Below, piece by piece: positions 24,463 to 56,066 of a stretch of DNA of 64,000 nucleotides. Origin of the DNA: a virus. The stretch lies in the IMG/VR virus record IMGVR_UViG_3300018005_000012, positions 27,435-91,434 of that record. One strand, 5' to 3'. A program made the position numbers and the translations under genes. Within the stretch, counting starts at the first letter, position 1. The number at the start of each line of letters is the position of its first letter. The notes under the pieces were generated by a model, which saw nothing but the letters and a program-made list of their open reading frames with translations, did no database searches and was not told the DNA's origin.

Positions 24463-25338
24463 TTAATACACACCTCTTTGTCTCTGTGCCGCTAGAAGGG
24501 TCTTAGCCAAAGCCGTTTCCACTTCCTGTCTCACTCTTGCCAAGTCCACATTGCTTGAAGCGTTAATGGTAATCTGAACGTTGCCCATTCCTGCTCCAGC
24601 CGTCCCACCTTTCGGAACCACGGTCTCGCCCTGATGGAGCGTATATGGGCCAGTTCTAGGAACATAGCCACCGCTTTGCATACCGGGTGCAGCAACATGG
24701 GGAACTGTAGCCGCCTGATATAGCCCAATTCCTAATGCGGCTATGCCACCAATAACCGGAATCATTGAAAGTGCCATTCTTGCACTACTCTCAGCCGCAC
24801 TCGCACCGACCAACCCCAAAGAAATAGTAAACAAATTCATAGAGGTTATCACATCAGTAAAAGATGAAGTAATGGTCGCCAAGTTCTTGGCTGTTGCTGT
24901 AACATAGTCATTGAGAGCAACCATCTCGTTCTTCTTAGACTGAGTGTAGAGAGCACCAACATAACTTGCGGCTGTGGTTGCTCTCGTTGCCTGTTCTGAG
25001 CCTTTGCCATAGATATTGACAGCCGTTGCCTGCAAAGCAAGTGCCTGAGTATATTTATTCTGAGTCTGAATGACATTGATTTGAGCCTGATACAAATCCA
25101 CCAACTCATCAATGTTACCAGATACCATGTCGGCTGTAGCATTGAAAATAGTCTGCCAATCCTTTATAGCAGTCTGAAACGTTTTCACTCCCTGAATAGC
25201 CGCATTCTGAGTATCAGAAAGTGCGTGTAGTGCTTCATTATATTCTTTAACCGAAATAGCCTCGTGCTCCAGTGCCATTTTTAGGTCTTCTATACTTTCT
25301 GCTAAGTCGATAATCTCTTTCCCACTCAGAGTTGGCAT
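24463..25338 (-). CDS. Tape measure-like protein (short)
   Basis: 291 residues. A helical N-terminal region (about 1-190), a hydrophobic segment (SMIPVIGGIAALGIGLYQAA) and the motif QSGGYVPRTGPYTLHQGETV, which is characteristic of the C-terminal part of phage tape measure proteins. Position between the frameshifted chaperone and the hub also fits. Tape measure length sets tail length (about 1.5 Angstrom per residue), so a helical region this short would imply a very short tail, or the protein is only part of the ruler. Confidence 0.7.
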   Translation of the reverse strand: MPTLSGKEIIDLAESIEDLKMALEHEAISVKEYNEALHALSDTQNAAIQGVKTFQTAIKDWQTIFNATADMVSGNIDELVDLYQAQINVIQTQNKYTQALALQATAVNIYGKGSEQATRATTAASYVGALYTQSKKNEMVALNDYVTATAKNLATITSSFTDVITSMNLFTISLGLVGASAAESSARMALSMIPVIGGIAALGIGLYQAATVPHVAAPGMQSGGYVPRTGPYTLHQGETVVPKGGTAGAGMGNVQITINASSNVDLARVRQEVETALAKTLLAAQRQRGVY

Positions 25339-25352
25339 CCTACTCTATAAGT

Positions 25353-25897
25353 CTACGTCTCGCCTTTTAAGCCTTCCGCCTGTCCTAACTTCTTCTGTTC
25401 TCTCTCAAGTCTCCTCTTCTCGGCTTCAATGGTAAACTCATGGGCTAGAAGGAGTTCCCTTATCTCAAGACTGGTCATCTTAAGGGCTTCCTCTCTGGGG
25501 ATGCCTATCTGGTCTTGGAGCACTTTCAGAACGACATACTTGTTGTATTTGTTCAGAATGGCCTTGGCTTCGTTTACTGTTTCTTGGTCTTTTCTTGTGG
25601 TAACTCCTGTAACGGTAAGTTCTTTAAGAGCGATAAAAAACTGGTTTCGTATTGGTTGAATCTTCGTATCTCAACCCAAAGATGCAATACCACTTCTCTA
25701 TCCGCCACTTTCACCGCTTGTATGGACTCAAACTTAGGGGCGGCTGTCCCATAGAAGACAGTAAGGGCTTGCTGTTCCACAATCTTGTTTTGGTTGGCAT
25801 CAACAAAGTCGTCCACGACAGCACCCTCTTCAAAGCCAAAACGCTTGATGGTGTAGGTCACTCCCTTAATCTTTAGAACCTTAGTGTCGGTAGTCAC
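25353..25897 (-). CDS. Tail assembly chaperone, -1 frameshift fusion (gpGT-like)
   Basis: Reading the 25897 frame to the T TTT TTA heptamer (25640-25634) and then shifting -1 adds about 93 residues, ending at TAG 25355-25353. The extension is helical and charged (KDQETVNEAKAILNKYNKY, IEAEKRRLEREQKKLGQ). The -1 frame is closed by TGA about 30 nt before the heptamer and has no ATG/GTG/TTG until half way through, so it is not an independent gene. Location between tail tube and tape measure is that of phage lambda G/GT, whose fusion loads the tape measure. Confidence 0.72.
25574..25897 (-). CDS. Tail assembly chaperone, unshifted form (gpG-like)
   Basis: 107 residues from GTG 25897 (26 nt below its TATA box; TTG 25903 is too close). 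Begins MTTDTKVLKIKG with a short beta domain, then helices through VADREVVLHLWVEIRRFNQY, and terminates 60 nt after the slippery heptamer with LPQEKTKKQ. In tailed phages the unshifted and shifted forms act together during tail assembly and are absent from the virion. Confidence 0.72.
   Translation of the reverse strand: MTTDTKVLKIKGVTYTIKRFGFEEGAVVDDFVDANQNKIVEQQALTVFYGTAAPKFESIQAVKVADREVVLHLWVEIRRFNQYETSFLSLLKNLPLQELPQEKTKKQ
25634..25640 (-). promoter_or_regulatory. Slippery heptamer T TTT TTA for -1 ribosomal frameshifting
   Basis: In the zero frame the codons are AGT TTT TTA (25642-25634), a canonical X XXY YYZ arrangement. The -1 frame beyond it is open for about 93 codons. No obvious pseudoknot was worked out downstream. 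Confidence 0.72.
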
Positions 25898-25917
25898 AAA
25901 CAATAGAAGGGCGAGAG

Positions 25918-25928
25918 ACTATATAAAT
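25918..25928 (-). promoter_or_regulatory. TATA box for the chaperone-tape measure-hub operon
   Basis: ATTTATATAGT (minus strand), centred 26 nt before GTG 25897; this decides the start. Confidence 0.6.
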
Positions 25929-25931
25929 GTT

Positions 25932-26306
25932 TTACTCGCCACGAATGGCCCTTGCGTTCTCATCGAGCATTCTCTTCAAGTCTTTCGCCTCTAGTTCCTG
26001 TCTGAGTCTCATTACCTCACTTGCGGCAGAACCAGCCACTACGTTCTGATAGGGGTAATCTCGCATGACCTCTGCAACAGAAGGAAGGACTTCTCCTCTT
26101 TCTCTTGCAATTTTCCCTATCTCTGCATCTCTTTTCGCACCCACATATATGCCCATAAGAGCGACTGGAACAATTATTGCGGTCATTGCTCCAATTCCTA
26201 TCATTATCACTTCAATGTTTCCCATGAGTGTTCCTAGTGCCGTCATGCCAACTCCTATCAGACAGGCGATTCCGTATCCCCATCCACTTGTCATTTGTTT
26301 TTTCAC
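25932..26306 (-). CDS. Membrane protein with coiled-coil C-terminus
   Basis: 124 residues from GTG 26306 (ATG 26294 possible). Two hydrophobic segments (GIACLIGVGMTALGTLMG and VIMIGIGAMTAIIVPVALMG) form a hairpin, followed by a charged helix (SEVMRLRQELEAKDLKRMLD). It lies inside the tail module between tail tube and chaperone and has its own promoter. Function unknown. Confidence 0.6.
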   Translation of the reverse strand: MKKQMTSGWGYGIACLIGVGMTALGTLMGNIEVIMIGIGAMTAIIVPVALMGIYVGAKRDAEIGKIARERGEVLPSVAEVMRDYPYQNVVAGSAASEVMRLRQELEAKDLKRMLDENARAIRGE

Positions 26307-28008: not shown

Positions 28009-28518
28009 TTACACTCGTTTTAACTCACCATTTTTTGCTCTCTTGATGAATTGACAACACATACAGAGGACTTGGTATCCCTCTGGAAAGTTGTTCTTGA
28101 TGAGCCATGGATAGATTGCTTGGGTTCCTATTGCTTTTAAATGTTTGTTTCCACCACCTTCAATGTGGTCTATGCTAAGTGCTCGAATGTCTTTGGCTAG
28201 AGGACAATTCGGAAGATGTTTATGAAAGATGTCTCGACAATGGGGTTCAATAGCATCAGGGTCGAAAATTCTGGTGTAATGAAGCAGAACAATCTCTTTG
28301 TTCGTCACCCATCGCTCATGACTTGCGACAAGAATGAATTTGCGTTTCTGTCTGTAATAGCCTTTCTTTTGTTTCAACACTTGGGGTTTTCGACTAGCGT
28401 AATTCTCTTTGCTTCGTTTACATTGACATGACTTACACGCATAATAGTTCTGGCGAAAGGATGCTGGATACCAGTTATCTTCGGTAAGAGAGACACCACA
28501 ATACTTGCAAACTGCCAT
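28009..28518 (-). CDS. HNH endonuclease (LSIDHI.G type)
   Basis: 169 residues from ATG 28518. An N-terminal zinc ribbon (CKYCGVSLTEDNW ... CKSCQ) is also present in the genes at 30321 and 42167. A basic linker and the HNH core LSIDHIEGGG ... YQVLCMCCQFIKR follow. Its end runs into the GNAT gene and appears to have displaced that gene's start. Confidence 0.85.
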   Translation of the reverse strand: MAVCKYCGVSLTEDNWYPASFRQNYYACKSCQCKRSKENYASRKPQVLKQKKGYYRQKRKFILVASHERWVTNKEIVLLHYTRIFDPDAIEPHCRDIFHKHLPNCPLAKDIRALSIDHIEGGGNKHLKAIGTQAIYPWLIKNNFPEGYQVLCMCCQFIKRAKNGELKRV

Positions 28519-28538
28519 ACCCATTCTTCGGCACAAGA

Positions 28539-30320: not shown

Positions 30321-30845
30321 ATGGTCAACTGTAATAGGTGCGGAGTTGAGTTAACTCCTGAAAATTGGTCTGCAAAAGGAACACATGGATTCAGATGTAA
30401 AAATTGCCATGCCTTAACAATGAGAGAATGGCGACAAAAGAACCCACAAAAGGTTCTAGACTATCGCAAAGACTACGGTAACACTCATAGAAAGGAGATT
30501 CGTGAAGGAGATGCACGACACAGAGAAAGAGCCAAAATTATCGTCAACGAATACTATTCTAATGGAACGAATGCGTGTGCAGACCCCCATCATTTGCATC
30601 TTCCCAATGACCCCATTGCTCGTGATATTCGTGCTCTTGAGATAGACCACATCGGAGATGATGGACAAGACGAGAGAAAGAAACTTGGAAAGGTAGGGTC
30701 TGGATGGCTATTCTACGATTGGCTCATTAAACACAACTTTCCAAAGGGATACCAAGTGTTATGTGCCAGTTGTAACCGTATTAAGCAAATAGAACACCTT
30801 AAGAGAGAACGCTTAAATAGGTTAAAGCAGATACCCCTGCCATGA
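30321..30845 (+). CDS. HNH endonuclease (IDHI.GDG type)
   Basis: 174 residues. N-terminal zinc ribbon (CNRCGVELTPENW ... CKNCH), basic linker, then LEIDHIGDDGQ and YQVLCASCNRIKQ. Close relative of the genes at 28009 and 42167. Its TGA overlaps an ATG at 30842, and it sits directly upstream of the disrupted reading frame that precedes terL. Confidence 0.85.
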   Translation: MVNCNRCGVELTPENWSAKGTHGFRCKNCHALTMREWRQKNPQKVLDYRKDYGNTHRKEIREGDARHRERAKIIVNEYYSNGTNACADPHHLHLPNDPIARDIRALEIDHIGDDGQDERKKLGKVGSGWLFYDWLIKHNFPKGYQVLCASCNRIKQIEHLKRERLNRLKQIPLP

Positions 30846-31164: not shown

Positions 31165-31828
31165 TTCTCGCAAACTTTCCGACATTGAGAAGCAACTCGT
31201 CCAACAGAGCATTCAGAGGCACATGGACGAACTCTTCCAGTGGACTCAGGTGAAGATGGCTCTCCGTCTGCTTAAGGAAGACGAGGGCATAAATCAGGAC
31301 GAATTGAAGTATGTGGAACAGGGGTTGAACGGGGTCTTCAACAACATCCTCAGAGACATCGTGCCAAGAGTGGAGAAGAGAAAGAAGACCTTCATTGAGA
31401 TGACGGATGAAGACTTCGGTGAAATGGTCAAATCCGACCCTCTACTCTCTTACTTCCGAAAGGAAGATTTCATCTACCACGTTACGGCCCCAGACTACGA
31501 AGAGAAGGAGCATCCCATCAAAGACCTCATCTATTCGCCACCTAGCAACAACCGTTTCATGCTAATCGCAACCATAGGAAAGGACGCTCATGGCGTAGAG
31601 CAGAGTTGGGCAATCGTAGACTCCAATCCAGTCACCCAAGCAGTTGTTTCAACTAACAAAGATGGAACTCCCAAAGATACGGTTGCTCACGGAGTCTACC
31701 GAATCTACTGTTTCAAGTGTAAGGAGTTCTTTACCTTTGAGTTGAATGCGGGACAAAACGTGGAGCAGATAGCCTGCGACAAATGCAACTCCACGATAAT
31801 TGAGAAGAGGTTTAAGGTTCATCAGTAG
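31157..31828 (+). CDS. Zinc-ribbon protein upstream of terminase
   Basis: 223 residues, start TTG 31157 overlapping the upstream frame. The helical N-terminal half (about 1-90) is followed by a beta-rich part and a C-terminal zinc ribbon (YCFKCKEFF ... ACDKCNST). In many tailed viruses the small terminase or a packaging adaptor lies just before terL, and the ribbon suggests nucleic-acid binding. No specific family is recognised. Confidence 0.6.
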   Translation: MPDSRKLSDIEKQLVQQSIQRHMDELFQWTQVKMALRLLKEDEGINQDELKYVEQGLNGVFNNILRDIVPRVEKRKKTFIEMTDEDFGEMVKSDPLLSYFRKEDFIYHVTAPDYEEKEHPIKDLIYSPPSNNRFMLIATIGKDAHGVEQSWAIVDSNPVTQAVVSTNKDGTPKDTVAHGVYRIYCFKCKEFFTFELNAGQNVEQIACDKCNSTIIEKRFKVHQ

Positions 31829-32240
31829 TTTCGAGAACGTTGGCAAGAAGATAATTATCTGCCAAGGCTTTCCATTCCGTTTTTTCGAGAAACCCAAGTC
31901 CAGTATTGCAACCATTACAAAGTAAACCTCTTACCTTACCAGTTTTATGATTATGGTCAACTCCATATCCATGTTGAGTTCTTTTCAATGGCTTTTGGCA
32001 AATTGCACAAAGACCATTTTGAACTAACCACATTGTCTCAAAATCTTCTAAAGAGAGACCAAGTTTTTTCAAACGCATAATGAGAAATTCTTGTTTATCT
32101 CGTCTCTTAATGTGCCGAAGTCTTTCCTTTGCCTGTAGTTGTTCTCTATGTGATTTACGATATTCTCGATTGTATTCGTTCCAGTGCTCCCTATTTTTAC
32201 GTCTCCATTCTCTGCAATATTCCTTATTATCATAAGGCAT
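31812..32240 (-). CDS. HNH endonuclease, endonuclease VII-like
   Basis: 142 residues from ATG 32240, chosen because CTTATAAG at 32262-32273 is centred 27 nt upstream (GTG 32264 would lie inside the box). The basic helical N-terminus leads to LCAICQKPLKR and VDHNHKTGKVRGLLCNGCN, the endonuclease VII core. It overlaps the convergent 31157 gene by 17 nt, and its promoter is embedded in the end of the peptidase gene. Confidence 0.85.
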   Translation of the reverse strand: MPYDNKEYCREWRRKNREHWNEYNREYRKSHREQLQAKERLRHIKRRDKQEFLIMRLKKLGLSLEDFETMWLVQNGLCAICQKPLKRTQHGYGVDHNHKTGKVRGLLCNGCNTGLGFLEKTEWKALADNYLLANVLETTDEP

Positions 32241-32260
32241 ATAATTACCATAATACAGAC

Positions 32261-32521
32261 TCACTTATAAGTGTTTCCATACTCTTCGGCCAAAGTTTCG
32301 TCAAGCCTTTCTGCTATAGAAATCAAATAAGTTAGATAATGATAAAACTCGTGAGCCAATGTTTGTTTTGAAACATTACTATTTACAACAATGACACATT
32401 TCCCAATATCAAATTGGGCTTCAAAATCATCGTGAATTTTGGTGGCCATCACTCCTATATAGGGAACACGATACTTTTCACATAAACCATCTATCATTCG
32501 TTGGGCTTGTTCATGATTCAT
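32261..32521 (-). CDS. Mini-metallopeptidase (HExxH)
   Basis: 86 residues. QTLAHEFYHYL contains HEFYH (gluzincin-type zinc site) and RLDETLAEEYG supplies a downstream Glu for the third ligand. Such small single-domain zinc peptidases occur in phages and in ImmA/SprT-like families that cleave regulators or act in DNA-protein repair. No DNA-binding domain is attached. The promoter is not clear (ATAATACAAG at about 32540 is a weak candidate). Confidence 0.7.
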   Translation of the reverse strand: MNHEQAQRMIDGLCEKYRVPYIGVMATKIHDDFEAQFDIGKCVIVVNSNVSKQTLAHEFYHYLTYLISIAERLDETLAEEYGNTYK

Positions 32522-32605: not shown

Positions 32606-34159
32606 ATGAGCAGTGTGAACGAAAGGCTCCTTAAGACCATAGAAACCGAGTTCGGTCAAATCAAGGACATACAGCCAAAGGACGTAGAGTTAGACCTTAG
32701 TGACCCCGTTACATTTGTTGAGAAGTATGTGACCCTGCCAGAGAAGGCCCCACCCGAACAGAAGACTTGGTTCGAGAAGCGGCCTTGGCTTCCAGAACTC
32801 TACCGAGATGAGAGCAAACGAATCGTCATAGTCAAGGGCAGACAGATGGAAGTCTCCGAGTATGCTGTCAATATGCTCTTCTATTGGGGTCTCAAGTGGC
32901 CGGGAAAGTATATCTACGCTTCATCTTCGGGTGAGAAGGCAGACAACTTCAGCCACGATAGGTTCCAAAAGCAACTGCTCCGAAGCCCCACTCTTCAAGC
33001 CCTCACAAGAGGGCAGGCTGTCAGAAGGATTGTCTATGGCAACTCTCAACTCTACTTCATGACAGGCTATGAAGACACCAAAACCTTGAGAAGCATTGAC
33101 GCTGATGGCATCATTCTAGACGAGTTCCAAGACTATAGAGCCAACTCCGTCCCTATCGCAGAAGAGGGCATCCAACACAGTGCTCTGAAGAGGCTGTGGG
33201 TAATCGGAACGCCTCTGCTAACCGGAACCAACTTCTCCAATCTCTGGGATAACAGCACAAAGAAGGAATGGAAGGTGGATAAACAAGTGTGGGAAGTGGA
33301 GAATCCTGAGTCCGATAAGGCATGGACTGGATACCACATCAGTCAAGATTTCGCTGTGAATGTCTGGATTACACCAGAAGACATGGAATACAGACGCAAG
33401 AAGAAGCCACGACAGGAGTTCATGAACGAGGTCTTGGGGCTATTCTATGCTGGTCTTGGCAGACCAACTGACTACGGTTACATGAGAACCCTCTTCAGTC
33501 CGGTCTTGACGAAGGGACAGTTTGCGGCAAACGATTTGCTACTGGCTGGTGTAGATTGGGGTGTCTCAAAGGCCAACACCGTCTTCTACGTCATCCGTCC
33601 CCGCCTCTTGGAGTTACCAGACATCTACACTCTCGACACCATCTACATCGAGAAGGTGGAAGACCCAGACCTCACCAAACAGATTACCAGAGTGGCCACC
33701 CTGCTCAAGACCTTTCCCATAAGACTAGCCATGCTAGACTATGGTTCAGGCTTCGTCCAGAATCAGACACTCTTCAAGGAGTTCGGCAATCGTGTGATGC
33801 AAGTGGAGTTGGGCAGTGGCAAAGCGGGCCAACCCATCACCATTGAAAACACACCTTTTGGCAGATTTGTGAAGGTGAACAGAACGTGGGCCATTGACAC
33901 GGCTATGGATTACGTCACCAAACCAGAGAGGTTCAGAATCTACAGTGAGGTAGATGAAGGAACACGAGACTGGATTATCAGCGACTTCCTAGCGGAGTAT
34001 CCAGAGAACAGCACGACTACGGGCAAGAAGATATGGGTTCACAACCCCGATACCACCGATGACGTTCTCATGGCCTTCGTCAACGCTGTAATAGGCTTCC
34101 ACCTTCAGAAGGGCTCCACGGTATCGGGAAATGCCGAAGACTGGATTTCCTTCGTCTAG
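32606..34159 (+). CDS. terL: Terminase large subunit
   Basis: 517 residues. ATPase: IVIVKGRQMEVSEYAV near 75 is the Walker A position with a non-standard sequence (no GKS/T; the Arg-Gln of viral terminases is kept), Walker B DGIILDEFQD near 168, and coupling motif WVIGTPLLTG. Nuclease (RNase H fold): LLAGVDWGVS near 314, LAMLDYGSG near 375 and TTDDVLMAF near 484 supply the acidic residues. The protein packages DNA through the portal and cuts the concatemer. It is followed by a LAGLIDADG gene. Confidence 0.93.
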   Translation: MSSVNERLLKTIETEFGQIKDIQPKDVELDLSDPVTFVEKYVTLPEKAPPEQKTWFEKRPWLPELYRDESKRIVIVKGRQMEVSEYAVNMLFYWGLKWPGKYIYASSSGEKADNFSHDRFQKQLLRSPTLQALTRGQAVRRIVYGNSQLYFMTGYEDTKTLRSIDADGIILDEFQDYRANSVPIAEEGIQHSALKRLWVIGTPLLTGTNFSNLWDNSTKKEWKVDKQVWEVENPESDKAWTGYHISQDFAVNVWITPEDMEYRRKKKPRQEFMNEVLGLFYAGLGRPTDYGYMRTLFSPVLTKGQFAANDLLLAGVDWGVSKANTVFYVIRPRLLELPDIYTLDTIYIEKVEDPDLTKQITRVATLLKTFPIRLAMLDYGSGFVQNQTLFKEFGNRVMQVELGSGKAGQPITIENTPFGRFVKVNRTWAIDTAMDYVTKPERFRIYSEVDEGTRDWIISDFLAEYPENSTTTGKKIWVHNPDTTDDVLMAFVNAVIGFHLQKGSTVSGNAEDWISFV

Positions 34160-34194: not shown

Positions 34195-34638
34195 ATGGAT
34201 TGGTCTTACGTTGCTGGTCTGTTTGATGGGGAAGGTAGTGTTACATTCCTCAAAAATAAGGGGAGTTTCCATCTTATGATAAGCATTTCGGCTTCACATC
34301 AACCAACTCGACAAGCATTGGAAGAGTTCTTAACTCAGAGGGGGATTAGTTCGTCTACTTCCACTACCAAAAATCCTTTGGGTCAAAGTAGTCGTATCGT
34401 AATAGAAAACTGGGATGGAGCAAGAAAGTTTTGTCATGCCATTCTTCCTTATGTAATCGAGAAGAAACGTCATATTGCGATAGTATTCAAGATTTTCCAA
34501 TTAAGAACAAAAGTGGCCTTGAATGATGAGATGTTTATCTCTCATACTGCCGAATTTGACGCTTTGCGGCAAGAACTTCATGCTCTAGCCAACAAAGGGC
34601 CGTCCCTTAAGAGAGAGTGGGAAAACACCTTTAAATAG
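34195..34638 (+). CDS. LAGLIDADG homing endonuclease (single motif)
   Basis: 147 residues. YVAGLFDGEGSV near residue 5 is the LAGLIDADG helix; SSTSTTKNPLGQSSRIVIEN fits the DNA-binding beta sheet. With one motif it would act as a homodimer. Its last codons and stop (TTT AAA TAG) are exactly the TATA box of the next gene, so it is packed tightly between terL and 34663. Confidence 0.85.
   Translation: MDWSYVAGLFDGEGSVTFLKNKGSFHLMISISASHQPTRQALEEFLTQRGISSSTSTTKNPLGQSSRIVIENWDGARKFCHAILPYVIEKKRHIAIVFKIFQLRTKVALNDEMFISHTAEFDALRQELHALANKGPSLKREWENTFK
34630..34638 (+). promoter_or_regulatory. TATA box for the 34663 gene
   Basis: TTTAAATAG centred 29 nt upstream of ATG 34663; it doubles as the Phe-Lys-stop codons of the LAGLIDADG gene. 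Confidence 0.7.
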
Positions 34639-42166: not shown

Positions 42167-42694
42167 ATGTCTCGTTGTCGTGTCTGCAAAATTGAACTTA
42201 CGTCAGAGAACTGGTTTCTCTCGAAACAAAAGGCTCATTCCTACATCTGTAAATCGTGCCATAATACCTACAATCGAAAGAACGTGGCAAAACACTTACC
42301 AGAAATCAAAGCAAAAAAGAAACGTTACCGAGAACAAAATAGAGAGAGAATAAGAGAAGGTTGGATAGAGTGGTTCAGAAAACTAAAATACAAGGCCCTA
42401 TGTTTTGTTTCTGGCACAGACCCGCCTCAGTGTGCTAATCCTTATGGTATGCACGAGCCTAATTGTCCTCTTCTAACCGCTATAGAGAGTCTTTCAATAG
42501 ATTATATTGCTGGTGGTCATAAGAGAAAGAACCTTCCTTTCAGTGCACCACTCTATTCTAAAATTCTAAAGGAAAAGAAATTTGGAGAATGGCAAGTCTT
42601 GTGTATGTGCTGTCAATTCATCAAACGATACAAAAATCACGAAATACCAAGTCATGTTGTTAGTTCAACAGAGTTGACCGCTAACAACGCATGA
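42167..42694 (+). CDS. HNH endonuclease (LSIDYI.GG type)
   Basis: 175 residues. Zinc ribbon (CRVCKIELTSENW ... CKSCH), basic linker, CANPYGMHEPNCPL, then LSIDYIAGGH and WQVLCMCCQFIKRY. The first catalytic His of the IDHI motif is Tyr here (IDYI), so nuclease activity may be lost. It overlaps the convergent 42652 gene by 43 nt. Confidence 0.8.
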   Translation: MSRCRVCKIELTSENWFLSKQKAHSYICKSCHNTYNRKNVAKHLPEIKAKKKRYREQNRERIREGWIEWFRKLKYKALCFVSGTDPPQCANPYGMHEPNCPLLTAIESLSIDYIAGGHKRKNLPFSAPLYSKILKEKKFGEWQVLCMCCQFIKRYKNHEIPSHVVSSTELTANNA

Positions 42695-44569: not shown

Positions 44570-47143
44570 ATGTCTAAGGATGAGGCTTACGGTAAGACGA
44601 CTCCATATGCCACCTGTCCTATCTGTAGTGATATAATGCTAACTGAAGAGTATGACGACCACATGATACACAGTCACAACCAAGAACAACGAGACACGCT
44701 CACCAGACAAAAAAAAGATGAAGGGCCACAAGGCCATTTCTATGGCGATGTCTGGTGGAAGTATGAAGCAGACCCAGAACTAGACCAAATCAATCCAGAC
44801 TATTGGGACATTATCTCCAACGAAGCATGGGAAGGAGAGGGATGTGAGATATGTCGGGAGATAGTCCAAAACGTAGAGCAAATGGATGGAAAGTATTTCA
44901 TCTATGCGACCCCAGAACAAGAGCAACACATGACCGAGATGTTTGGTGTTGCACCCGGCCCAGAAGAGGCGACATCGGGTTATCTCGACCCTTCAGACCC
45001 CAAATGGACACAGGGAACAGTTCCACACATCCAAGAGTGGCATCAGAAACATCCCGGTGGCAAAGGTGGAGGAACGTTTGGGCCACAGTCAGGAATGACA
45101 AGAGGAGAGCCTACTCGTGACGAATGGAGTCCCGGTTCCTACCTTGATGAACTTGGTATACCTTGGACTCATAAAAAGAAGTTGAGCGAAATAGACCATG
45201 CTGAAACAAGTGAACACTCCACAATAAGAGAGGGGGAACCGGGTCATCCACTGATTGAGTATGACATCTTTCTAGAAGATGGTAGTTACATTGCCATTGA
45301 AACTTCTCCCGGTTGGCATAAAGGTGGGCCAAGTGAAGGTAGTTTTCCAAGGGTCACTTTCGATGACGAATACAAAGCCGAATTTGCCAAGAAAAATGGT
45401 ATTGACTTTATCACAGTTGACCCCAAACAGGACAATGTAAAATTCATCAATAGGGAATTGGTTCCCCGACTACAATCGTTAGGGTATGATGCTGAAGAAG
45501 TAGGTGCAGGAGAGTTGACAGGAGACATACCGATTCCACCTGTAAAGGGCGAAGAGAAGGAAAGACTGATATGGTGTGGCGATTGTGGTAGCCTCTTCGA
45601 GACCAAGCCAGAATTGACCAAGCACTTCCAACAGACCGGACACAGTTCTGTAGGCGAAGGAACGGCAGAGAAAGTAGAAGACAAAGGAGACTACTTCGAT
45701 AAAGAGATTTACTTGGACAATGGCTATGGCTTCAACTTCACCACAACCATTAGTTATCCAATAGACCCTGCTCTTCCTATGCTGATTGATAGTAAGACCA
45801 AAGAAGAATTGGAGAAAGAGAGAGATGAACTCATAAAAACAATAACAATGGCCATAAATAGAGCCGTTGCAGAAGACCCTCAAGAATTAACAGATGAGGA
45901 TATAGAGGAGATTGTAAACTATATGACTGCCTACGATAGAGTTCTCCCTAAGAATCTACAAATGATTGCAGACGAACTTACCGTTGCAAGAGACAGTGTT
46001 GTGGCCAATAATGCTAATGCAGTTGTAGAGATAGAGATGCTTTTACAGGCTCTAAATGATGCTGAAGGCGTTGCACCTGAAGACATGGGAGTGGAACTAG
46101 AAGACTTGGAAGACATACCTGATGTAGAAAAGGTAGAAGAGTTTGAGAAGGGCAACCCCTTCAACCAGCAATATATCTACCGAGAAAAGGCAGGATACGA
46201 TTGGGATTACAACGTGAAGTATAGAGAGAAGCCCATCCTTGAAGAGCAAATTGATGTTCCAGAAGGCGTAGTTCCACCCGAAGGATATGCAAGACAAACC
46301 GATGAAGAAACAGCCTACAGTATTGTAGAGCACTTGAAGGAAGGGCCAGAGGCTTTTGATTCGTGGAAAGAGTTCGTAGAACACTTCCAATATTTGGCAG
46401 ACATCAACTATCTCTCTCTTCTACAACCCCCTATTGTGTCTGAAGAGTTCTACCAAACCTACAAGCCTCTCATAGATGGGGCAAGCAGACAGATGACTAG
46501 ATACCCTGACCTTAAAGAGCAGTCTGGAATCAATCAGAACATTCCCACTGGCAAATATACCACTGTAGAACCTCTAGCCCTAGACCAGTCCCAGAACGTG
46601 CCCAGATACCCAGAGCGTGGGAAGGTCAACACCATAGAACAGGAAAGTGGTGGAGAAGAGTTGGCGGCTGACAGCCACCTGTTCCAAGAACAGGAAGAGG
46701 GCGGAGTTTACCTAGCCTGTCCGAAATGCACTGGCAGTGGTGGTCTCTACGATAAGAGAAATGATAGATGGATTCCCTGTCCAGTGTGCGGTGGGACGGG
46801 CCACGGAGAGAAGCAGTTCGATTGGCCAGAGGATGTGAGAGATGTGAAGAGCGAAGGACGATGGGACAGGCCACAAATTCCCGACCCTAAGAGAGCAAAA
46901 CAATTGGAAGACTGTCAGAAGATAGTAAACGAAGTAACGGATGCTATCACAAAAGCAATTGAAGAAGGCGAACTTACCTCAATGGAAAGCGATACGATGA
47001 TTAACTACTTGGCCGAAATCCAAGACGCACTTGCAAGGGAGAACATTGAAGAAGCAGCCTCTATCATACGCAAGATGACAGAACTTGTAGATAGAAAGAC
47101 TGCAACTATGTCTGAACCCCAAGCCGAGTTAGGAGAGCCGTAA
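44570..47143 (+). CDS. Large acidic multi-zinc-finger protein
   Basis: 857 residues. N-terminal C2H2 finger (CPICSDIML...HMIHSH, about 16-37), a CEIC pair near 97, a folded alpha/beta region (about 215-315: YDIFLEDGSYIAIETSPGW ... KKNGIDFITVD) that resembles a nuclease-type sheet without a clear active site, a second C2H2 finger (CGDCGSLF...HFQQTGH, about 340-362), helical segments, DnaJ-type pairs (CPKCTGSGG ... CPVCGGTG, about 718-745) and a helical C-terminus like that of 8910. Largest member of the acidic finger family. It converges on the SWIM gene with a 38-nt overlap. Confidence 0.65.
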   Translation: MSKDEAYGKTTPYATCPICSDIMLTEEYDDHMIHSHNQEQRDTLTRQKKDEGPQGHFYGDVWWKYEADPELDQINPDYWDIISNEAWEGEGCEICREIVQNVEQMDGKYFIYATPEQEQHMTEMFGVAPGPEEATSGYLDPSDPKWTQGTVPHIQEWHQKHPGGKGGGTFGPQSGMTRGEPTRDEWSPGSYLDELGIPWTHKKKLSEIDHAETSEHSTIREGEPGHPLIEYDIFLEDGSYIAIETSPGWHKGGPSEGSFPRVTFDDEYKAEFAKKNGIDFITVDPKQDNVKFINRELVPRLQSLGYDAEEVGAGELTGDIPIPPVKGEEKERLIWCGDCGSLFETKPELTKHFQQTGHSSVGEGTAEKVEDKGDYFDKEIYLDNGYGFNFTTTISYPIDPALPMLIDSKTKEELEKERDELIKTITMAINRAVAEDPQELTDEDIEEIVNYMTAYDRVLPKNLQMIADELTVARDSVVANNANAVVEIEMLLQALNDAEGVAPEDMGVELEDLEDIPDVEKVEEFEKGNPFNQQYIYREKAGYDWDYNVKYREKPILEEQIDVPEGVVPPEGYARQTDEETAYSIVEHLKEGPEAFDSWKEFVEHFQYLADINYLSLLQPPIVSEEFYQTYKPLIDGASRQMTRYPDLKEQSGINQNIPTGKYTTVEPLALDQSQNVPRYPERGKVNTIEQESGGEELAADSHLFQEQEEGGVYLACPKCTGSGGLYDKRNDRWIPCPVCGGTGHGEKQFDWPEDVRDVKSEGRWDRPQIPDPKRAKQLEDCQKIVNEVTDAITKAIEEGELTSMESDTMINYLAEIQDALARENIEEAASIIRKMTELVDRKTATMSEPQAELGEP

Positions 47144-47591: not shown

Positions 47592-48272
47592 CTAAGAGTC
47601 CTCTTCCGGCTCCTCAATCTTCGTCTCGAAGTCCTCAATCTTGAGAGGCTTCTTGGTCGTGTAATCAATCATTTCTTCTTCTGGCTTTATCCATCCCTTC
47701 TCAAGTTGGATAGACCTAGCCAAGAGATAGAAGATGGTGGCAATGGCCTTTGCACCCGCATTGTTAGCCGGGATACAGAAGTCTACGTCCTCGAAGGTGG
47801 CGTTGGTGTTGCAGATGGCTATCACTGGAATGCCGACATCTCCAGCCTCCTTCATGGCCCTTCGGTCTCCCCTTATGGCTTCGCCTATCTTCTTTGGTAT
47901 GCCATTGGTCGGGTCAGAGACAATCAACACATTGGCATCAATGTAGTATTGGGATTGGGCATTCGTGAGACAACCGGGCATGAAGCGATGGAAGACGGTG
48001 GGTATGAGAGTGGCCCTCTTGAATGCCGTAAGAGCGTTCTCGAACCTCGCATCGGTGGCATAGAGCACAGCACTTTCGGACTTGACTATGAACTTGCCAG
48101 CCGAGTCCAGTCGAGTGAGGATGGCGTTCACATCCAAGATGGGATTGCCGCTTGGAGCATATTCGGTAACAAATTGGGTCATGTCTCTAGTCACTGCTCC
48201 TCTGATTCCCAAGTGTATTCCGGTGGCCTTTAGAGGCTCTTCTGTGAGGGTCTTGGGCAGGATGTGACTCAT
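47592..48272 (-). CDS. rps2: Ribosomal protein uS2 homologue (archaeal type)
   Basis: 226 residues, close to archaeal uS2 length (about 200-230). Family hallmarks in order: TGIHLGIRG (GxHxG), a VLD-type strand before a helix (ILDVNAILTRLDSAGKFIV), RFMPGCLTN near 96, VLIVSDP near 117, RRAMKEAGDVGIPVIAICNT near 140-160, VDFCIPANNAGAKAIATI and FYLLAR. An insertion of about 15 residues (PTNGIPKKIGEAIRGD) follows the SDP motif, and the C-terminus is acidic. uS2 joins the small subunit late, next to the mRNA exit/Shine-Dalgarno region. ATGA coupling with the upstream 73-residue gene. It could replace host uS2 or act outside the ribosome. Confidence 0.9.
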   Translation of the reverse strand: MSHILPKTLTEEPLKATGIHLGIRGAVTRDMTQFVTEYAPSGNPILDVNAILTRLDSAGKFIVKSESAVLYATDARFENALTAFKRATLIPTVFHRFMPGCLTNAQSQYYIDANVLIVSDPTNGIPKKIGEAIRGDRRAMKEAGDVGIPVIAICNTNATFEDVDFCIPANNAGAKAIATIFYLLARSIQLEKGWIKPEEEMIDYTTKKPLKIEDFETKIEEPEEDS

Positions 48273-48490
48273 TGCTTTTCACCTATCATCTCTAATATCA
48301 CATCAGGACAAATATGGTCATCTTGTGGCTTATACTCATTAGCCAACTTTTTAAGACCATTCAATTTTTCATGTGCCCAGAATTTGCATTCAGATTCGGG
48401 GACGGGTTTGCTTGAAGCAAAATCGAGCCAATGATATTCCAATTCGACTGCTTTCCCCATTGAGTCAATACACTTCTGGCAGTAACTCAT
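48269..48490 (-). CDS. Small Cys/His protein (73 aa)
   Basis: CQKCIDSMG near the start, ECKFWAHEK and HICPD supply further possible metal ligands. ATGA overlaps with both neighbours place it in a tight operon directly before uS2. No family is recognised. Confidence 0.6.
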   Translation of the reverse strand: MSYCQKCIDSMGKAVELEYHWLDFASSKPVPESECKFWAHEKLNGLKKLANEYKPQDDHICPDVILEMIGEKQ

Positions 48491-48651
48491 TTCTTTGGTT
48501 CCACCCGCATTACATAAGTGTAGAAGTAAATCGTTGAACCGTCTTTGGTAGTCCCTTCGAGATGACCCCCTGCATATGGATGGCCTTCCGTTGAATCAGT
48601 CTCACACACCATCTCCAACTTTACTATCTCTACTCTTTCTCCTATTTTCAT
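48487..48651 (-). CDS. Small beta-rich protein (54 aa)
   Basis: MKIGERVEIVKLEMVCETDS then an HLEGTTKDGSTIYFY strand pair, compatible with a small SH3/OB-like barrel. Starts with ATGA on the HNH stop and ends with ATGA on the next gene. No family is recognised. Confidence 0.55.
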   Translation of the reverse strand: MKIGERVEIVKLEMVCETDSTEGHPYAGGHLEGTTKDGSTIYFYTYVMRVEPKK

Positions 48652-49112
48652 GTCTTACTCGCCTCTACCGACTTGAGATAATCTATTACTTTAGGTAATA
48701 GTCCAGATTCTACCAGTCCCACAAGAACATTACACCGATTACAAATGATTCCTCGCACTTTATTGGTCTTATGGTCGTGGTCAACACATGGTTCTTTCTT
48801 ACCAACAAAATCTTCACCACAGATTTTACACTTATTGTGCTGATTCTGTATCATCTTCGTGACATCCTCTATCGTCAATCCATACTTTGTTTTGAAATGC
48901 CAACGTCTACTATCTAGTCTTGCCGCCTCAATGTGAGCATTCCTATAGTTCTGACTTCCTCTTTTCACCATCTCATAATAACCTTTATGCTCTTGCGACA
49001 AACAAGACTCCGAGGGCTTACGAGATGTTCCCCTTTTACAACTTTTACAGATAGAGCGATAGTATGTCTTTCCATTCTTGCTTACAAGTTTAACTGTGTT
49101 GTATTTGCTCAT
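48648..49112 (-). CDS. HNH endonuclease, endonuclease VII-like
   Basis: 154 residues. Zinc ribbon (SICKSCKRGTS), helical basic region, CKICGEDFVG, then CVDHDHKTNKVRGIICNRCN. Inserted in the operon between the RecJ-like gene (3-nt gap) and the uS2 cluster, without an obvious promoter of its own. Confidence 0.87.
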   Translation of the reverse strand: MSKYNTVKLVSKNGKTYYRSICKSCKRGTSRKPSESCLSQEHKGYYEMVKRGSQNYRNAHIEAARLDSRRWHFKTKYGLTIEDVTKMIQNQHNKCKICGEDFVGKKEPCVDHDHKTNKVRGIICNRCNVLVGLVESGLLPKVIDYLKSVEASKT

Positions 49113-49115
49113 GTT

Positions 49116-50303
49116 CTATCCCTTAGAGAGTTCTACCGACCTCACCAAATCATCGAGTATGGCCTCAATGTTGTTGGTATGAGTCTTGGCAGAGCCAGCA
49201 GGCTTTATGCCACCACCTTCCATAATGGCTGGATTGGCACATCTGAAGACCCGCCCTATGTGGAGTTTGCCGTCCCTTCCACCCCTACCAGAGACATGAA
49301 CCCCATACTCAGGGATGTTGTTGATAACGAACCAAGTCTTATGGTTGGCGTTGCTCAACTTACTACATAGAGCAGAACCCATGTTCCACTTATGACTGAT
49401 GATGGTCACACCAAAGTCAGGATAGTCAAGTTGGGTATAGTTGCCTCGCTTCTCTACATCTCCCTTGTTCTTTCTATAGTTTACGGTAAGTTCCAGAAGC
49501 ATCTTAAGATTGGGACTTACTGTCCACCCACCCACGGCTTCTTTATTGACATACTCGTAAAAACCGAGCCAATTAGGAATCTGCTCCATCTCCTTCATCG
49601 CTTCATAGCAGACGGGTGGAGCCTTGTTGTATATCATGCGTCTAGGGTTGTGGAAGAGTTGGGCGTAAAACGCTAGGATGCTCCAATCGTAACTGCTATT
49701 CAGAGCCTTGGAAGCAAGCAAGCCCCGCATGGAAGGATGCTTGTCTAGAAGTTCTTGGAAGAGAGGGCCGCCCTCTTTGGTCTCGGTTGCGACATCTCCT
49801 TCTAATCCTATCAAAGCCCATTTGTCCATGTTGACCAAAGGCCAATTGAACTTCTTGACAAAGTTGTAGGCTATACCAGTGGTGCAGTTTTCGGTGGATG
49901 ATTCGTAGTAGAAGAAGGGCAGGTTGGGAAAGACAAACTTAGCCCTCACGTTCTCCAACATCTTGACAAAGATGCCAAAATTATCTTGGTCTTCCACTTC
50001 AGGGTCGGGTGGGTGGTTGTCTAGAATGATGGTATTGATGCCATTGGCTAAAAAGGCTGTGGCATAGTTCAACATATCCATGCCGCTTCCAATGTCCAGA
50101 ATGAAGACCGTTGCTGGCTTCAGGTCAAGAATGTCTGAGACATTAGAATCGGTCATCCCAAAGATGTCCCAGTCTTGCCACATGACAGTATGCGTGGCCT
50201 TAGGGTGCATCTGTGTAACGGCATTATGGATGATGCGAGTGGCCATCATTCCATCAGTATCTTCATCGCTGAAGATGACGGTATCAGTGTTTGTGTTGCT
50301 CAT
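49116..50303 (-). CDS. DHH-family exonuclease (RecJ/GAN-like)
   Basis: 395 residues. DHH motifs: FSDEDTDGMMAT (near 12-22), FILDIGSGMD (near 70), IILDNHPPD (near 93, DNH instead of DHH); DHHA1-type end HVSGRGGRDGKLHIG and EGGGIKPAGSAKT (GGG..(K/H).AG). Archaeal RecJ-like proteins (GAN) are single-strand exonucleases that travel with the replisome beside MCM and GINS, and Cdc45 is an inactive relative. A viral copy would complement the MCM-like helicase. First gene of the uS2 operon. Confidence 0.82.
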   Translation of the reverse strand: MSNTNTDTVIFSDEDTDGMMATRIIHNAVTQMHPKATHTVMWQDWDIFGMTDSNVSDILDLKPATVFILDIGSGMDMLNYATAFLANGINTIILDNHPPDPEVEDQDNFGIFVKMLENVRAKFVFPNLPFFYYESSTENCTTGIAYNFVKKFNWPLVNMDKWALIGLEGDVATETKEGGPLFQELLDKHPSMRGLLASKALNSSYDWSILAFYAQLFHNPRRMIYNKAPPVCYEAMKEMEQIPNWLGFYEYVNKEAVGGWTVSPNLKMLLELTVNYRKNKGDVEKRGNYTQLDYPDFGVTIISHKWNMGSALCSKLSNANHKTWFVINNIPEYGVHVSGRGGRDGKLHIGRVFRCANPAIMEGGGIKPAGSAKTHTNNIEAILDDLVRSVELSKG

Positions 50304-50337: not shown

Positions 50338-50523
50338 CTACTTCTTCTCGGAGAACGGCCCAATCTTCTGAATCTTGAATTGTTCAAAAAGACACTCTCT
50401 CATCTCCGTAGTGTCGCTTTTATGAAGTAGGCGTTTCGTCTTCTCGTCTTGAATGTAGTGATTGCGGTTCTGACAGTAATTCATCTCTGGAAAGTGTGGC
50501 TTGTTATTGTCTGAGGTTATCAT
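50338..50523 (-). CDS. Small hypothetical protein (61 aa)
   Basis: ATG 50523 overlaps the stop of the exonuclease gene (ATGA). NYCQNRNHYIQDEKTKRLLH and ECLFEQFKIQKIGPF; hydrophilic, with two Cys and several His. No family is recognised. Confidence 0.5.
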   Translation of the reverse strand: MITSDNNKPHFPEMNYCQNRNHYIQDEKTKRLLHKSDTTEMRECLFEQFKIQKIGPFSEKK

Positions 50524-51176
50524 ATGCTCCTCCGCAACCCTTTGATGTAGGGTAGAAGTTTCTCATGGGCCTTCTCCAGAAGGATGACATCCCGCTTGTT
50601 GTGCTCCTGAATGTAGTCTCTGGCCTTCGGACTGAGTAGTGCTTGAGTCCAGATGTCTGGGTCAAGGTGCGTCTTAAGCCCTTGCAAGCCCAAGAGGTTG
50701 CCCACGTTCTCCAGTCTGTTTCGGCTCAACTTCAGTTTGGACTTCGCCACATAGTAGAGGTCGTGATGGATGACAGAACCATACTCTGGAAAGGCTAGGC
50801 CCCACTTCAAAGCACGAGTGCGTATGAAGGGAATGTCGTAACCCGTTCCGTAGTAGGTCACTACCATGTCGAACTTGAGCAAATCCACAAGAAGTTTCTC
50901 CATGAGAGGCTTGTCCAACCTCAATGCGTCTATGTCTTTCTGCTCAATTACATTTGAGTAGATAATGTCTTTGCCTCTTACCTTAAAGGCATAAGACAAA
51001 AGAACACCGAAGTCCGCATCCAAATTGGTCGCTTCAATGTCGAAGTAACCAACTCGAAAGTCGTTTTCAGTATTCTCTACGAACTTTGTCCAACATTCTG
51101 GATGTTCTGTTCCACGGTGGCCGTGAACACAATGCCAATGTTCGGCAACAATCAACAGTTTCTTTGGGTCTTTCAT
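50520..51176 (-). CDS. DEDD 3'-5' exonuclease (DnaQ/PolB-exo-like)
   Basis: 218 residues. ExoI VGYFDIEATNLDADFG (near 41-56), ExoII TYYGTGYDIPFI (near 107-118), ExoIII HNKRDVILLEKAHEK (near 194-208). This matches stand-alone RNase H-like exonucleases related to the proofreading domain of PolB. The N-terminus has a His/Cys-rich stretch (HWHCVHGHRGTEHPEC) that may bind zinc. Expected to degrade or proofread DNA ends. It lies in an operon with a nucleotidyltransferase. Confidence 0.82.
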   Translation of the reverse strand: MKDPKKLLIVAEHWHCVHGHRGTEHPECWTKFVENTENDFRVGYFDIEATNLDADFGVLLSYAFKVRGKDIIYSNVIEQKDIDALRLDKPLMEKLLVDLLKFDMVVTYYGTGYDIPFIRTRALKWGLAFPEYGSVIHHDLYYVAKSKLKLSRNRLENVGNLLGLQGLKTHLDPDIWTQALLSPKARDYIQEHNKRDVILLEKAHEKLLPYIKGLRRSI

Positions 51177-51177
51177 G

Positions 51178-51912
51178 TTACACTACCACACCCTTCGTTG
51201 CCAGCCCTTTTAAGTGTTCTGCTTTATGAAGCCCCTCTACCGTCCCACAATCCAAGTATACACCCTTGGCCTTGACCGCCTTGAATACTGTTCCCTTTAG
51301 CATCATTAGTGAGATAACATCACCCATAGTTCCTCTTTGGAATTGGCCATACTTTGAGAGTTGTTTCACCGTAGTCTTCATCATATCTGTGAACACCCAA
51401 CCCTCTGAATGAACGTTAAGCGTCCCACAAACGTAGGGCGGAGTCTTGATTTTTCCTTTCCAATCGAGGGTTAGAGCAGGTCGTCCAAGCATATCACCCT
51501 TCGCCACCACTATTGCGTGTTCTTGTTCCATCAACCTATCCATAAAGTTGAAGTTCTCAAAGTAGGAGTCAATGGCCGAGAAGATGACCTCTGTGAAGAC
51601 TCGATGAGATGAGAGAGCCGGAAACGCACTGGTCATCCAAAGAGAGGGATTGTTGACCTGACCATTCCTATCTTGCTGGTCTAAAAAGGTGCTGATGCTC
51701 TTATCCTTGAAAGTGGTCGTTACATTCTCATGAAGCCAGTTGTTCCACCAACCTTGATTCCACTGATTGTGAACTATCCACACCGTATCTGCTGGCACAG
51801 CATCAATAATCCTCTCAAAGAGGCGAAGACCGTTAACGGCCAACAGGTGTTTCTGCACCGCTTCGACTGGATACCCACCAGCCATCAGAACAAGCACACG
51901 ATTCTGGCTCAC
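51178..51912 (-). CDS. Sugar-phosphate nucleotidyltransferase-like protein
   Basis: 244 residues from GTG 51912 (GTGA overlap). VLVLMAGGYPVEAVQKHLLA then VNGLRLFERIIDAV matches the nucleotide-binding start of GlmU/RmlA-type transferases, with the usual GxGxR loop shortened to AGGYP. GTLNVHSEGWVF and VYLDCGTVEGLHKA (W/Y.D.GT...L..A) match the substrate-binding part. It would charge a sugar for glycosylation of virion, cell surface or DNA. Not certain that it is catalytic. Confidence 0.65.
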   Translation of the reverse strand: MSQNRVLVLMAGGYPVEAVQKHLLAVNGLRLFERIIDAVPADTVWIVHNQWNQGWWNNWLHENVTTTFKDKSISTFLDQQDRNGQVNNPSLWMTSAFPALSSHRVFTEVIFSAIDSYFENFNFMDRLMEQEHAIVVAKGDMLGRPALTLDWKGKIKTPPYVCGTLNVHSEGWVFTDMMKTTVKQLSKYGQFQRGTMGDVISLMMLKGTVFKAVKAKGVYLDCGTVEGLHKAEHLKGLATKGVVV

Positions 51913-52102: not shown

Positions 52103-53020
52103 CTATGCCAGCATATTCATTCCTTTTCTCACAGTCCAGAAGTCAGACGCTAGGTTGGAATTGATGAGATAGGCATACGGAATGGTGAAGTATCCCTTCT
52201 GACCCCATGAACTACCCCATGAGTTGCGACAGATGAATCTTTGGCTGGCATCGTCATATCCGAGACACATTACAGCGTGACCACCCAAGATACTTTCATT
52301 CGGCCCCGGCATCGGGACTACACCAGTCTGAGCCACTACATCAGACTCAAAACTACTATAGACGGTGAAACCGAAGACGAAGGGGAAGCCTGCGTCTAGA
52401 CAAGCCTTTATATCGGCCAACGTAGTGATTCTGAAGTATTGGGTAATCTCGTGTTGAGTTCCTTCAGTATAGGCATTGGCTGGCGGTTGGACGACAAATT
52501 TGCTGATGTCGTATGCCCATGTCGCTTCGTAACACGACCCTTGTGATGCAAGAGTAGACGCACCATCACGAAGTTCTGCTCCAGAATCGGTGCTAGTCGT
52601 TCCTTCAATAGCCCGTTCATTCCAGTAGATGAAGAGACGAGAGAAGTTGAGTCCCCCTGTCTTCTCCTGAAGACCGTCCTTAATTTCGAGGAACTGAAGT
52701 GCTCCAGCCCAAGCATTCGCAGTGCAACTTCCTAAATCGCCTTGGTCTTCGATTGGTGAGTCCTGTGGCCTCAAGTCAACATGATTATTAACGGGTGGAG
52801 TTGGAGTTGGCGGGGTCGGAGGCGGTGTCGGTTTTGGGCAGAAACTATTCTTGAGCCAAGTTACGAAATCATCCCATGCTCCTGTCTCAACGACTTCTGC
52901 CTTTTTTACTTCTCTCTTCATATCCTGCCCTGCGTGATAGATGAAATCACGAGAGTCTGGATGGTCTTTTCGCCAACCATTGTAGTTATGCTTCTTAGGT
53001 TCCTTCTTAGTTTCTGGCAT
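52103..53020 (-). CDS. Papain-family (C1A) cysteine protease
   Basis: 305 residues. A hydrophilic N-terminus, a Pro-rich spacer (PKPTPPPTPPTPTPP, about 62-77), then a complete C1A catalytic set: oxyanion Gln and nucleophile in QGDLGSCTANAWAG (Cys near 97), His in GGHAVMCLGYDD (near 246) and Asn in RNSWGSSWGQKG (near 262). The N-terminal WRKDHPDSRDF resembles the short lead-in of non-secreted viral and bacterial C1 proteases. No signal peptide or long propeptide. It may process virion proteins, act as an ejected protease, or cleave the host envelope. Confidence 0.9.
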   Translation of the reverse strand: MPETKKEPKKHNYNGWRKDHPDSRDFIYHAGQDMKREVKKAEVVETGAWDDFVTWLKNSFCPKPTPPPTPPTPTPPVNNHVDLRPQDSPIEDQGDLGSCTANAWAGALQFLEIKDGLQEKTGGLNFSRLFIYWNERAIEGTTSTDSGAELRDGASTLASQGSCYEATWAYDISKFVVQPPANAYTEGTQHEITQYFRITTLADIKACLDAGFPFVFGFTVYSSFESDVVAQTGVVPMPGPNESILGGHAVMCLGYDDASQRFICRNSWGSSWGQKGYFTIPYAYLINSNLASDFWTVRKGMNMLA

Positions 53021-53908: not shown

Positions 53909-54454
53909 ATGACCAAAGGACATGGATGGAAATCAAAATATGGTAGAAACTGGTATATTGAACATAGAGACGAGCAACTTTTGAAAATGAAAGCATGGCG
54001 AGAAGCAAATCCAGAGAAGATGAAAGCGGCTCATCAACGATGGAATGCTACTCATAAAGAACAGAACAAACAAACCCATAAAGAGTATCGTAAAAAGAAT
54101 CGAGACCGTGTGCGTGGATGGAAGAACGACTGGTATGAGAAACATCCAGAGAGGAAGAAAAGTATAGACAGAAATACTTACTTCAAAAGAGAACATGGTA
54201 TAACTCTAGAGACGTATGAGAGAATGATACAAGAGAGAAATAATAAATGCGATATATGCGGTAGCGAATGTAACAAGACAACTTCTTCTGGTAAGAAGTT
54301 AGAACCGTGTGTAGACCATAACCACAAGACAAATGAACTAAGAGGATTGCTTTGTACTCGCTGTAATCAAACACTTGGTAAAGTAGAGGACAACACCGAG
54401 TTGCTCTCTAAGATGATAGACTATCTCAATAGAACGAGAGGAAGCGGCAACTAA
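53909..54454 (+). CDS. HNH endonuclease, endonuclease VII-like
   Basis: 181 residues. A long basic helical N-terminus (about 1-100), CDICGSECNKT, then CVDHNHKTNELRGLLCTRCN. Convergent and abutting with the 54455 gene. Confidence 0.87.
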   Translation: MTKGHGWKSKYGRNWYIEHRDEQLLKMKAWREANPEKMKAAHQRWNATHKEQNKQTHKEYRKKNRDRVRGWKNDWYEKHPERKKSIDRNTYFKREHGITLETYERMIQERNNKCDICGSECNKTTSSGKKLEPCVDHNHKTNELRGLLCTRCNQTLGKVEDNTELLSKMIDYLNRTRGSGN

Positions 54455-55363: not shown

Positions 55364-55659
55364 GCACACCAGCCCCACCTGAGAAAGAACACTATCCTGC
55401 ATTTGAAGATAGTGACATCGTAGTTCTAGAAGGGAAAACCATGAGTAAAGGTAATGGTTGGTGGCAAGCAGTTTTGTTAGTTAAGACTTATGGAAAACTT
55501 CAGTGTAAACTTTACCTTTGGCAAGAAAGGCAAGATAAAACAACAGGTCAAAAGGTTTGGAAACGAAAGCAAAGTTGGACTATTAATTCATACAATTGGA
55601 CAGATACACAAAAAGTCATTAACGAATTTCTAGAGAAGCGTAAGACGATGAAAATATGA
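55360..55659 (+). CDS. Hypothetical protein (99 aa)
   Basis: Beta-rich body (DIVVLEGKTMSKGNGWWQAV, GKLQCKLYLWQERQDKTTGQ) ending in WTDTQKVINEFLEKRKTMKI. The last 20 residues closely match the C-terminal tail of the HNH gene that follows, which indicates insertion of that HNH gene into this gene's 3' end. Confidence 0.6.
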   Translation: MSTPAPPEKEHYPAFEDSDIVVLEGKTMSKGNGWWQAVLLVKTYGKLQCKLYLWQERQDKTTGQKVWKRKQSWTINSYNWTDTQKVINEFLEKRKTMKI

Positions 55660-56066
55660 ATCATACTGATTATACAAGAGAATGGGGTCGCAAACATCCT
55701 GAATCTAAGAAAAATTCACATCTAAAGAGTAGATACGGAATTACTCTTGACCAATTCAAAGAAATAGAATTAAAACAAAATGGTCTATGTGCGATTTGTG
55801 ACCAACCATTACCTGTAAATCCCAAGTTCCATCAGGTTGACCACAATCATCGAACAAATCATCTTCGAGGAATTTTATGTTTCTCTTGTAATCGTTTAAT
55901 CGGTGCTTGTGGAGAAAACTATCTTATACTTGCGAAGGCTATTGATTATTTGATGGATGACTCAGAAATGATACCTAACTGGGAGGAATGTAAGAAGATA
56001 ACAGACGAGTTCTTAGCCAAGAGAAAGACCGTGGTTTCAACAACTCCGGTGTATGAGAGGAAATGA
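55656..56066 (+). CDS. HNH endonuclease, endonuclease VII-like, with captured C-terminal tail
   Basis: 136 residues. LCAICDQPLPV and VDHNHRTNHLRGILCFSCN form the nuclease core (about 1-105). The remaining tail WEECKKITDEFLAKRKTVVS, ending TTPVYERK, is not part of the endonuclease VII pattern and resembles the end of the gene upstream (WTDTQKVINEFLEKRKT). ATGA overlaps on both sides. Confidence 0.83.
   Translation: MNHTDYTREWGRKHPESKKNSHLKSRYGITLDQFKEIELKQNGLCAICDQPLPVNPKFHQVDHNHRTNHLRGILCFSCNRLIGACGENYLILAKAIDYLMDDSEMIPNWEECKKITDEFLAKRKTVVSTTPVYERK

Follow-up and report, generated by a model that had tools for sequence, protein, structure and literature searches.

The 64-kb window analysed here, a 64,000-nucleotide stretch of an IMG/VR virus record of 91,434 bases, carries on its minus strand, at 47592–48272, a gene for a 226-residue homologue of ribosomal protein uS2; according to the ORF translation, the plus-strand reading of the same interval is not a uS2 protein. 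A Shine-Dalgarno-like GGTGA (48279–48283, minus strand) lies 6 nt before the ATG, so that, judging by its sequence, the gene looks Shine-Dalgarno-led. All the neighbours named next are likewise on the minus strand. The start codon of the uS2 gene is overlapped by a called ORF for a small CxxC protein (48269–48490). A free-standing endonuclease VII/HNH-type gene follows (48648–49112; Pfam PF02945, E 5e-18), and beyond it lie genes for a DHH/DHHA1 RecJ-like nuclease (49116–50303; NCBIfam RecJ_archaeal, E 1.7e-11; PHROG 2484), a stand-alone DEDDy-type proofreading exonuclease (50520–51176; Pfam RNase_H_2, E 7e-14; PHROG 403, DNA polymerase exonuclease subunit) and a conserved protein (51178–51912) that has no Pfam or NCBIfam match and is nucleotidyltransferase-like by eye only. 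Elsewhere, on the plus strand, the window encodes a terminase large subunit, a viral hallmark (32606–34159; PHROG 675, E 3.5e-51; Pfam GpA_ATPase), and a family B DNA polymerase, PolB, with its exonuclease on a separate gene (14625–16739; Pfam PF00136, E 4e-24); LamG lectin-like proteins are also encoded. The loci scanned for tRNAs contained none, and the window has no Rfam match.

The assignment to uS2 agrees at the levels of sequence and fold. The Pfam model PF00318 (Ribosomal_S2) matches the protein with 62.9 bits (E 3.4e-17), above the curated cut-off of 26.1, and the NCBIfam archaeal/eukaryotic model TIGR01012 (uS2_euk_arch), which fits far better than its bacterial counterpart, gives 131.7 bits (E 2.3e-38). 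The latter score falls short of the 211.5-bit equivalog threshold, and the protein is therefore a diverged uS2. A phmmer search of the PDB matched archaeal ribosome chains at E 1e-26. Based on 30 aligned sequences, AlphaFold2 produced a model with a pLDDT of 89.7 and a pTM of 0.86, for which all 50 PDB matches listed by Foldseek are uS2 chains, either ribosomal or free, with TM-scores (normalised by target length) of about 0.9 to archaeal ribosomal uS2. Among viral resources, the protein has no match in PHROG, and no uS2-like structure was found among the BFVD predicted viral structures at E ≤ 0.001. The profile searches and the structure prediction, both suggested in the initial annotation, point to the uS2 fold, and its central claim of a uS2 homologue at this locus is borne out on the minus strand: the ORF is a real, strongly diverged archaeal-type uS2 homologue.

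Since uS2 is a universal cellular gene and the sequence is of metagenomic origin, an assembly chimera or host contamination had to be considered. However, uS2 homologues turned up on four further IMG/VR contigs (labelled L002, L006, L007 and L090), which come from four additional metagenome samples. On the contigs of 105.7, 105.3, 37.5 and 106.9 kb, respectively, identity to the window copy is 84, 62–66, 61–64 and 53% for uS2, 94, 74, 74 and 57% for the terminase, and 92, 73, 72 and 70% for PolB. The neighbours of uS2 are syntenic in all five. Moreover, a viral uS2 profile scores viral proteins at 382–449 bits and any cellular uS2 among the matches listed at no more than 143 bits. Because the five independent contigs have the same neighbours, terminase and PolB, a chimera can be dismissed with near certainty, in agreement with the original view that the gene is virus-encoded. 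The three contigs of 105–107 kb suggest a genome near 106 kb. Further contigs sharing the terminase are short fragments, none of which was returned by the uS2 protein scans. For two close viral pairs, omega for uS2 is 0.13–0.14, similar to that of the neighbouring nuclease and indicative of purifying selection.

The gene order is equally stable. In all five viruses the conserved protein, the stand-alone exonuclease, the RecJ-like nuclease and uS2 follow one another on one strand, and every viral contig found with either the RecJ-like gene or uS2 has both. The RecJ-like nuclease gene and uS2 overlap by 4 nt, stop to start, in L002 and L006, where relatives of the small CxxC protein gene sit downstream of uS2. 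In the window, the small CxxC gene and the endonuclease VII-type gene separate the RecJ-like gene from uS2; the endonuclease VII-type gene occupies this site in the window virus only and is absent there from the other four contigs.

The viral proteins differ from cellular uS2 in several respects. The initial annotation had noted an insertion of about 15 residues after the SDP motif. The insertion itself is present in all five viral proteins and in none of 150 cellular archaeal uS2, but it is 12 residues long (residues 122–133, TNGIPKKIGEAI, encoded at 47874–47909 on the minus strand); in the predicted structure it would form a loop between a β strand (115–118) and a helix (136–145). The motif ahead of it is SDP except in L090, which has ADP. 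To describe the uS2 signature as preserved over the whole length proved too strong. In a thinned set of 63 cellular uS2, conservation reaches 90% or more at 47 columns. The five viral proteins agree in retaining 25 of these (mainly core Gly, Pro, Asp and Asn) and in having lost 11, and the remaining 11 survive in some of them; five of the lost columns are invariant among the viruses yet different from cellular uS2. At five of the 13 conserved basic columns (26, 37, 39, 172 and 174), Lys and Arg are missing from every viral protein; in cellular uS2, positions 37 (mostly Glu in the viruses), 39, 172 and 174 carry a basic residue in 86% of sequences or more. Basic positions 54, 60, 76, 96 and 175 and the FE motif of the tail are retained. 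As for the acidic C-terminus, it does not set the viral protein apart: net acidity over the last 20 residues is 4 to 8 in viral tails and reaches at least 6 in 23 of the 150 cellular ones. Some Bathyarchaeia uS2, such as L103, end in PLTIEDFEAKISKEEEES, and because some members of this group carry tails similar to the viral one (PLTIEDFE..K..EEE), the acidic tail is not a viral novelty.

In a tree with archaeal uS2, the viral proteins form one clade (support 100/100) on a very long stem, placed among Thermoproteota. With so long a branch, the tree yields no firm donor. Recent capture from a host was considered and ruled out, as the single viral clade is not nested in any sampled lineage and the best cellular identity is about 41%. 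Viral-type uS2 was absent from cells among the matches listed for 986 archaeal genomes of three phyla, where the best cellular scores were 142.9 bits in the Thermoproteota-type phylum and 129.6 and 123.7 bits in two euryarchaeal groups. The nearest cellular proteins, those of Bathyarchaeia (Thermoproteota), share with the viral ones the fold, the Gly/Pro/Asp/Asn core and the VSDP motif, and differ from them by the identity ceiling, the insert, the five missing basic residues and the sub-threshold equivalog score.

Several observations bear on the host. Mean identity to viral uS2 is highest for Bathyarchaeia (39.2%), nearly tied with other Thermoproteota (38.9%). VSDP occurs in 12 of 13 Bathyarchaeia uS2 compared with two of 137 other archaeal sequences. 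A full-length relative of the terminase (34% identity, E 7e-57) was found in one Bathyarchaeia-class genome (G044, contig L178, 1786–3405), at the edge of a contig that carries clearly archaeal genes; it might be a provirus remnant. Terminase relatives were absent from 233 Thermoplasmatota genomes, and among 237 genomes of the methanogen-containing phylum weaker matches appeared in only two. A search for CRISPR spacers, in which a 20-kb stretch was compared with 257 genomes from the class that includes a Bathyarchaeota reference, gave only short matches, none of them shown to be a spacer; several fall in the uS2 gene region. The VSDP motif, the similar tail in some members and the terminase relative are weak but concordant signs that the host or donor probably belongs to Bathyarchaeia. 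The view that a tailed virus encodes an archaeal-type uS2 homologue is supported.

What might a virus gain from its own uS2? We put at about even the chance that this is a virus-adapted uS2 docking on the host 30S subunit. According to this proposal, a strongly diverged archaeal-type uS2, vertically kept in a family of tailed viruses with genomes of about 106 kb that probably infect Bathyarchaeia, would take the place of uS2 on the host 30S. The homology and predicted fold speak for docking, as do the gene's presence in five syntenic contigs of one terminase/PolB family and the low omega. Retention of the core, of the five basic positions and of the FE motif is what one would expect of a protein that still uses much of the ribosomal interface. 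On the other hand, the cellular basic residues absent from all five viral proteins, the very long branch and the score under the equivalog cut-off argue against docking. Furthermore, uS2 does not belong to the loosely bound 'dynamic' proteins usual in viruses (PMC6375957), and the gene lies among replication nucleases rather than translation genes, in loci without tRNAs.

In the archaeal ribosome, uS2 is located at the end of the mRNA exit chamber (PMC7531240). With a core small-subunit protein of its own, bearing at the mRNA exit side an insert that only the viruses have, the virus might create virus-specialised archaeal ribosomes during infection, a suggestion that we make tentatively. The benefit could be a selection of viral mRNAs, a step less secure than docking itself. 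It had been proposed that this genome mixes leaderless first genes with Shine-Dalgarno-led internal genes and that a viral uS2 could tilt host ribosomes towards the leaderless viral mRNAs. Shine-Dalgarno-like sites precede 7 of 43 internal and 3 of 27 first genes against a background of 4%; since this enrichment is modest and the starts of the automatically called ORFs were chosen mechanically, such a split is not established. In E. coli, leaderless translation is favoured when both uS2 and bS1 are absent (PMC7531240, PMC9031893), whereas here a variant uS2 is present.

Because conserved basic residues have been lost and the nuclease neighbourhood is fixed, non-ribosomal and decoy roles also stay in contention. 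The first would be that of a neofunctionalised uS2 fold working off the ribosome with the RecJ-like nuclease and the polymerase exonuclease, where it might, for instance, serve viral genome replication or repair as a processivity partner or an adaptor that binds nucleic acids. The invariant order of exonuclease, RecJ-like nuclease and uS2, the 4-nt overlap in two viruses and the strict co-occurrence of the RecJ-like gene and uS2 are all consistent with such a partnership, and so is the loss of near-invariant ribosomal residues, five of which have been replaced by others that are invariant among the viruses. Nevertheless, the viral proteins retain roughly half of the strictly conserved uS2 columns, and a shared gene run is also expected of any co-expressed takeover gene; we regard this role as rather unlikely. 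Less probable still is a decoy, or dominant-negative protein, that would bind uS2 assembly partners or enter 30S precursors and stall host ribosome production or translation. A retained fold with an altered basic patch would suit a decoy, and there is an analogy in tagged phage bS21, which in E. coli ribosomes reduced in-vitro translation to about 5% (PMC6375957). However, the virus itself needs host ribosomes and we found no other sign of shut-off, making this explanation improbable.

Ribosomal proteins are known from other viruses. Phages encode bS21, bL12, bL9, bL31, bL33 and others (Mizuno et al. 2019, PMC6375957), PhiMa05 has bS1, uL1, uL11 and others (PMC13157829), and huge phages carry S4, S1, S21 and L7/L12 (PMC7162821). 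These cases resemble ours in that a ribosomal gene resides in a dsDNA tailed virus, and purifying selection was also reported in PMC6375957; they differ in having bacterial hosts and in that no uS2 is named in the text. Closer in kind are the tailed archaeal viruses with ribosomal proteins, namely haloarchaeal Hafunaviridae with L21e homologues (PMC8651126) and the Bathyarchaeia virus Kunpengvirus with bL19 (PMC10848311), but those are large-subunit proteins. Kunpengvirus likewise has PolB and a DEDDy exonuclease as separate genes (PMC10848311), a likeness of gene organisation as described there. The main text of PMC6375957, PMC7162821, PMC13157829, PMC8651126 and PMC10848311 names other ribosomal proteins and no viral uS2, in line with the initial annotation, according to which uS2 is not known from a tailed virus. 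Within the scope of these main texts, uS2 is an addition to the known virus-encoded ribosomal proteins, which for archaeal viruses have so far been L21e and bL19. Our tblastn search of 50,697 phage records gave weak uS2 matches only: the annotated ones fall in bacterial-type records as rpsB or ribosomal protein S2, whose remaining counterparts in the hit list lie in records that carry no annotation. The phage collection contained no match for the RecJ-like protein and no close match for the terminase or PolB.

Whereas the viral ribosomal proteins reported in these papers are mostly exchangeable or peripheral, the uS2 described here has been kept since the common ancestor of its virus family and combines a new element, itself conserved, with changes at conserved residues. 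Its presence in large tailed viruses with probable Bathyarchaeia hosts hints that the host's ribosomes may be partly rebuilt or blocked, and provides a concrete test of whether viruses can remodel the ribosomal mRNA exit side or recruit a ribosomal fold for genome maintenance.

Several other genes deserve mention. Short Cys-rich, free-standing HNH/endonuclease VII-like genes are scattered among the viral genes (17398–17835, 28009–28536, 30321–30845, 31812–32264, 42167–42694, 48648–49112, 53909–54454 and 55656–56066), two of them confirmed by Pfam PF02945; their sites vary between related viruses, which suggests mobile genes. A LAGLIDADG-type homing endonuclease gene (34195–34638; Pfam PF14528) directly follows the terminase gene. 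At 44570–47143 lies a gene for an 857-residue protein with zinc-finger-like motifs, whose length in relatives ranges from 578 to 1011 residues. Outside the window, weak Pfam matches indicate a class II glutamine amidotransferase-like domain in a large protein (L003, 10124–11797), and the virus also encodes an RlaP-like nucleotidyltransferase of the RNA repair pathway polymerase beta family (Pfam, E 3e-9; L004, 5327–5941, corresponding to 25327–25941 of the record). Finally, L002 and L090 also conserve the window's papain-family cysteine protease (52103–53020, minus strand; Pfam PF00112, E 5.7e-11), which could act in head maturation or in lysis.
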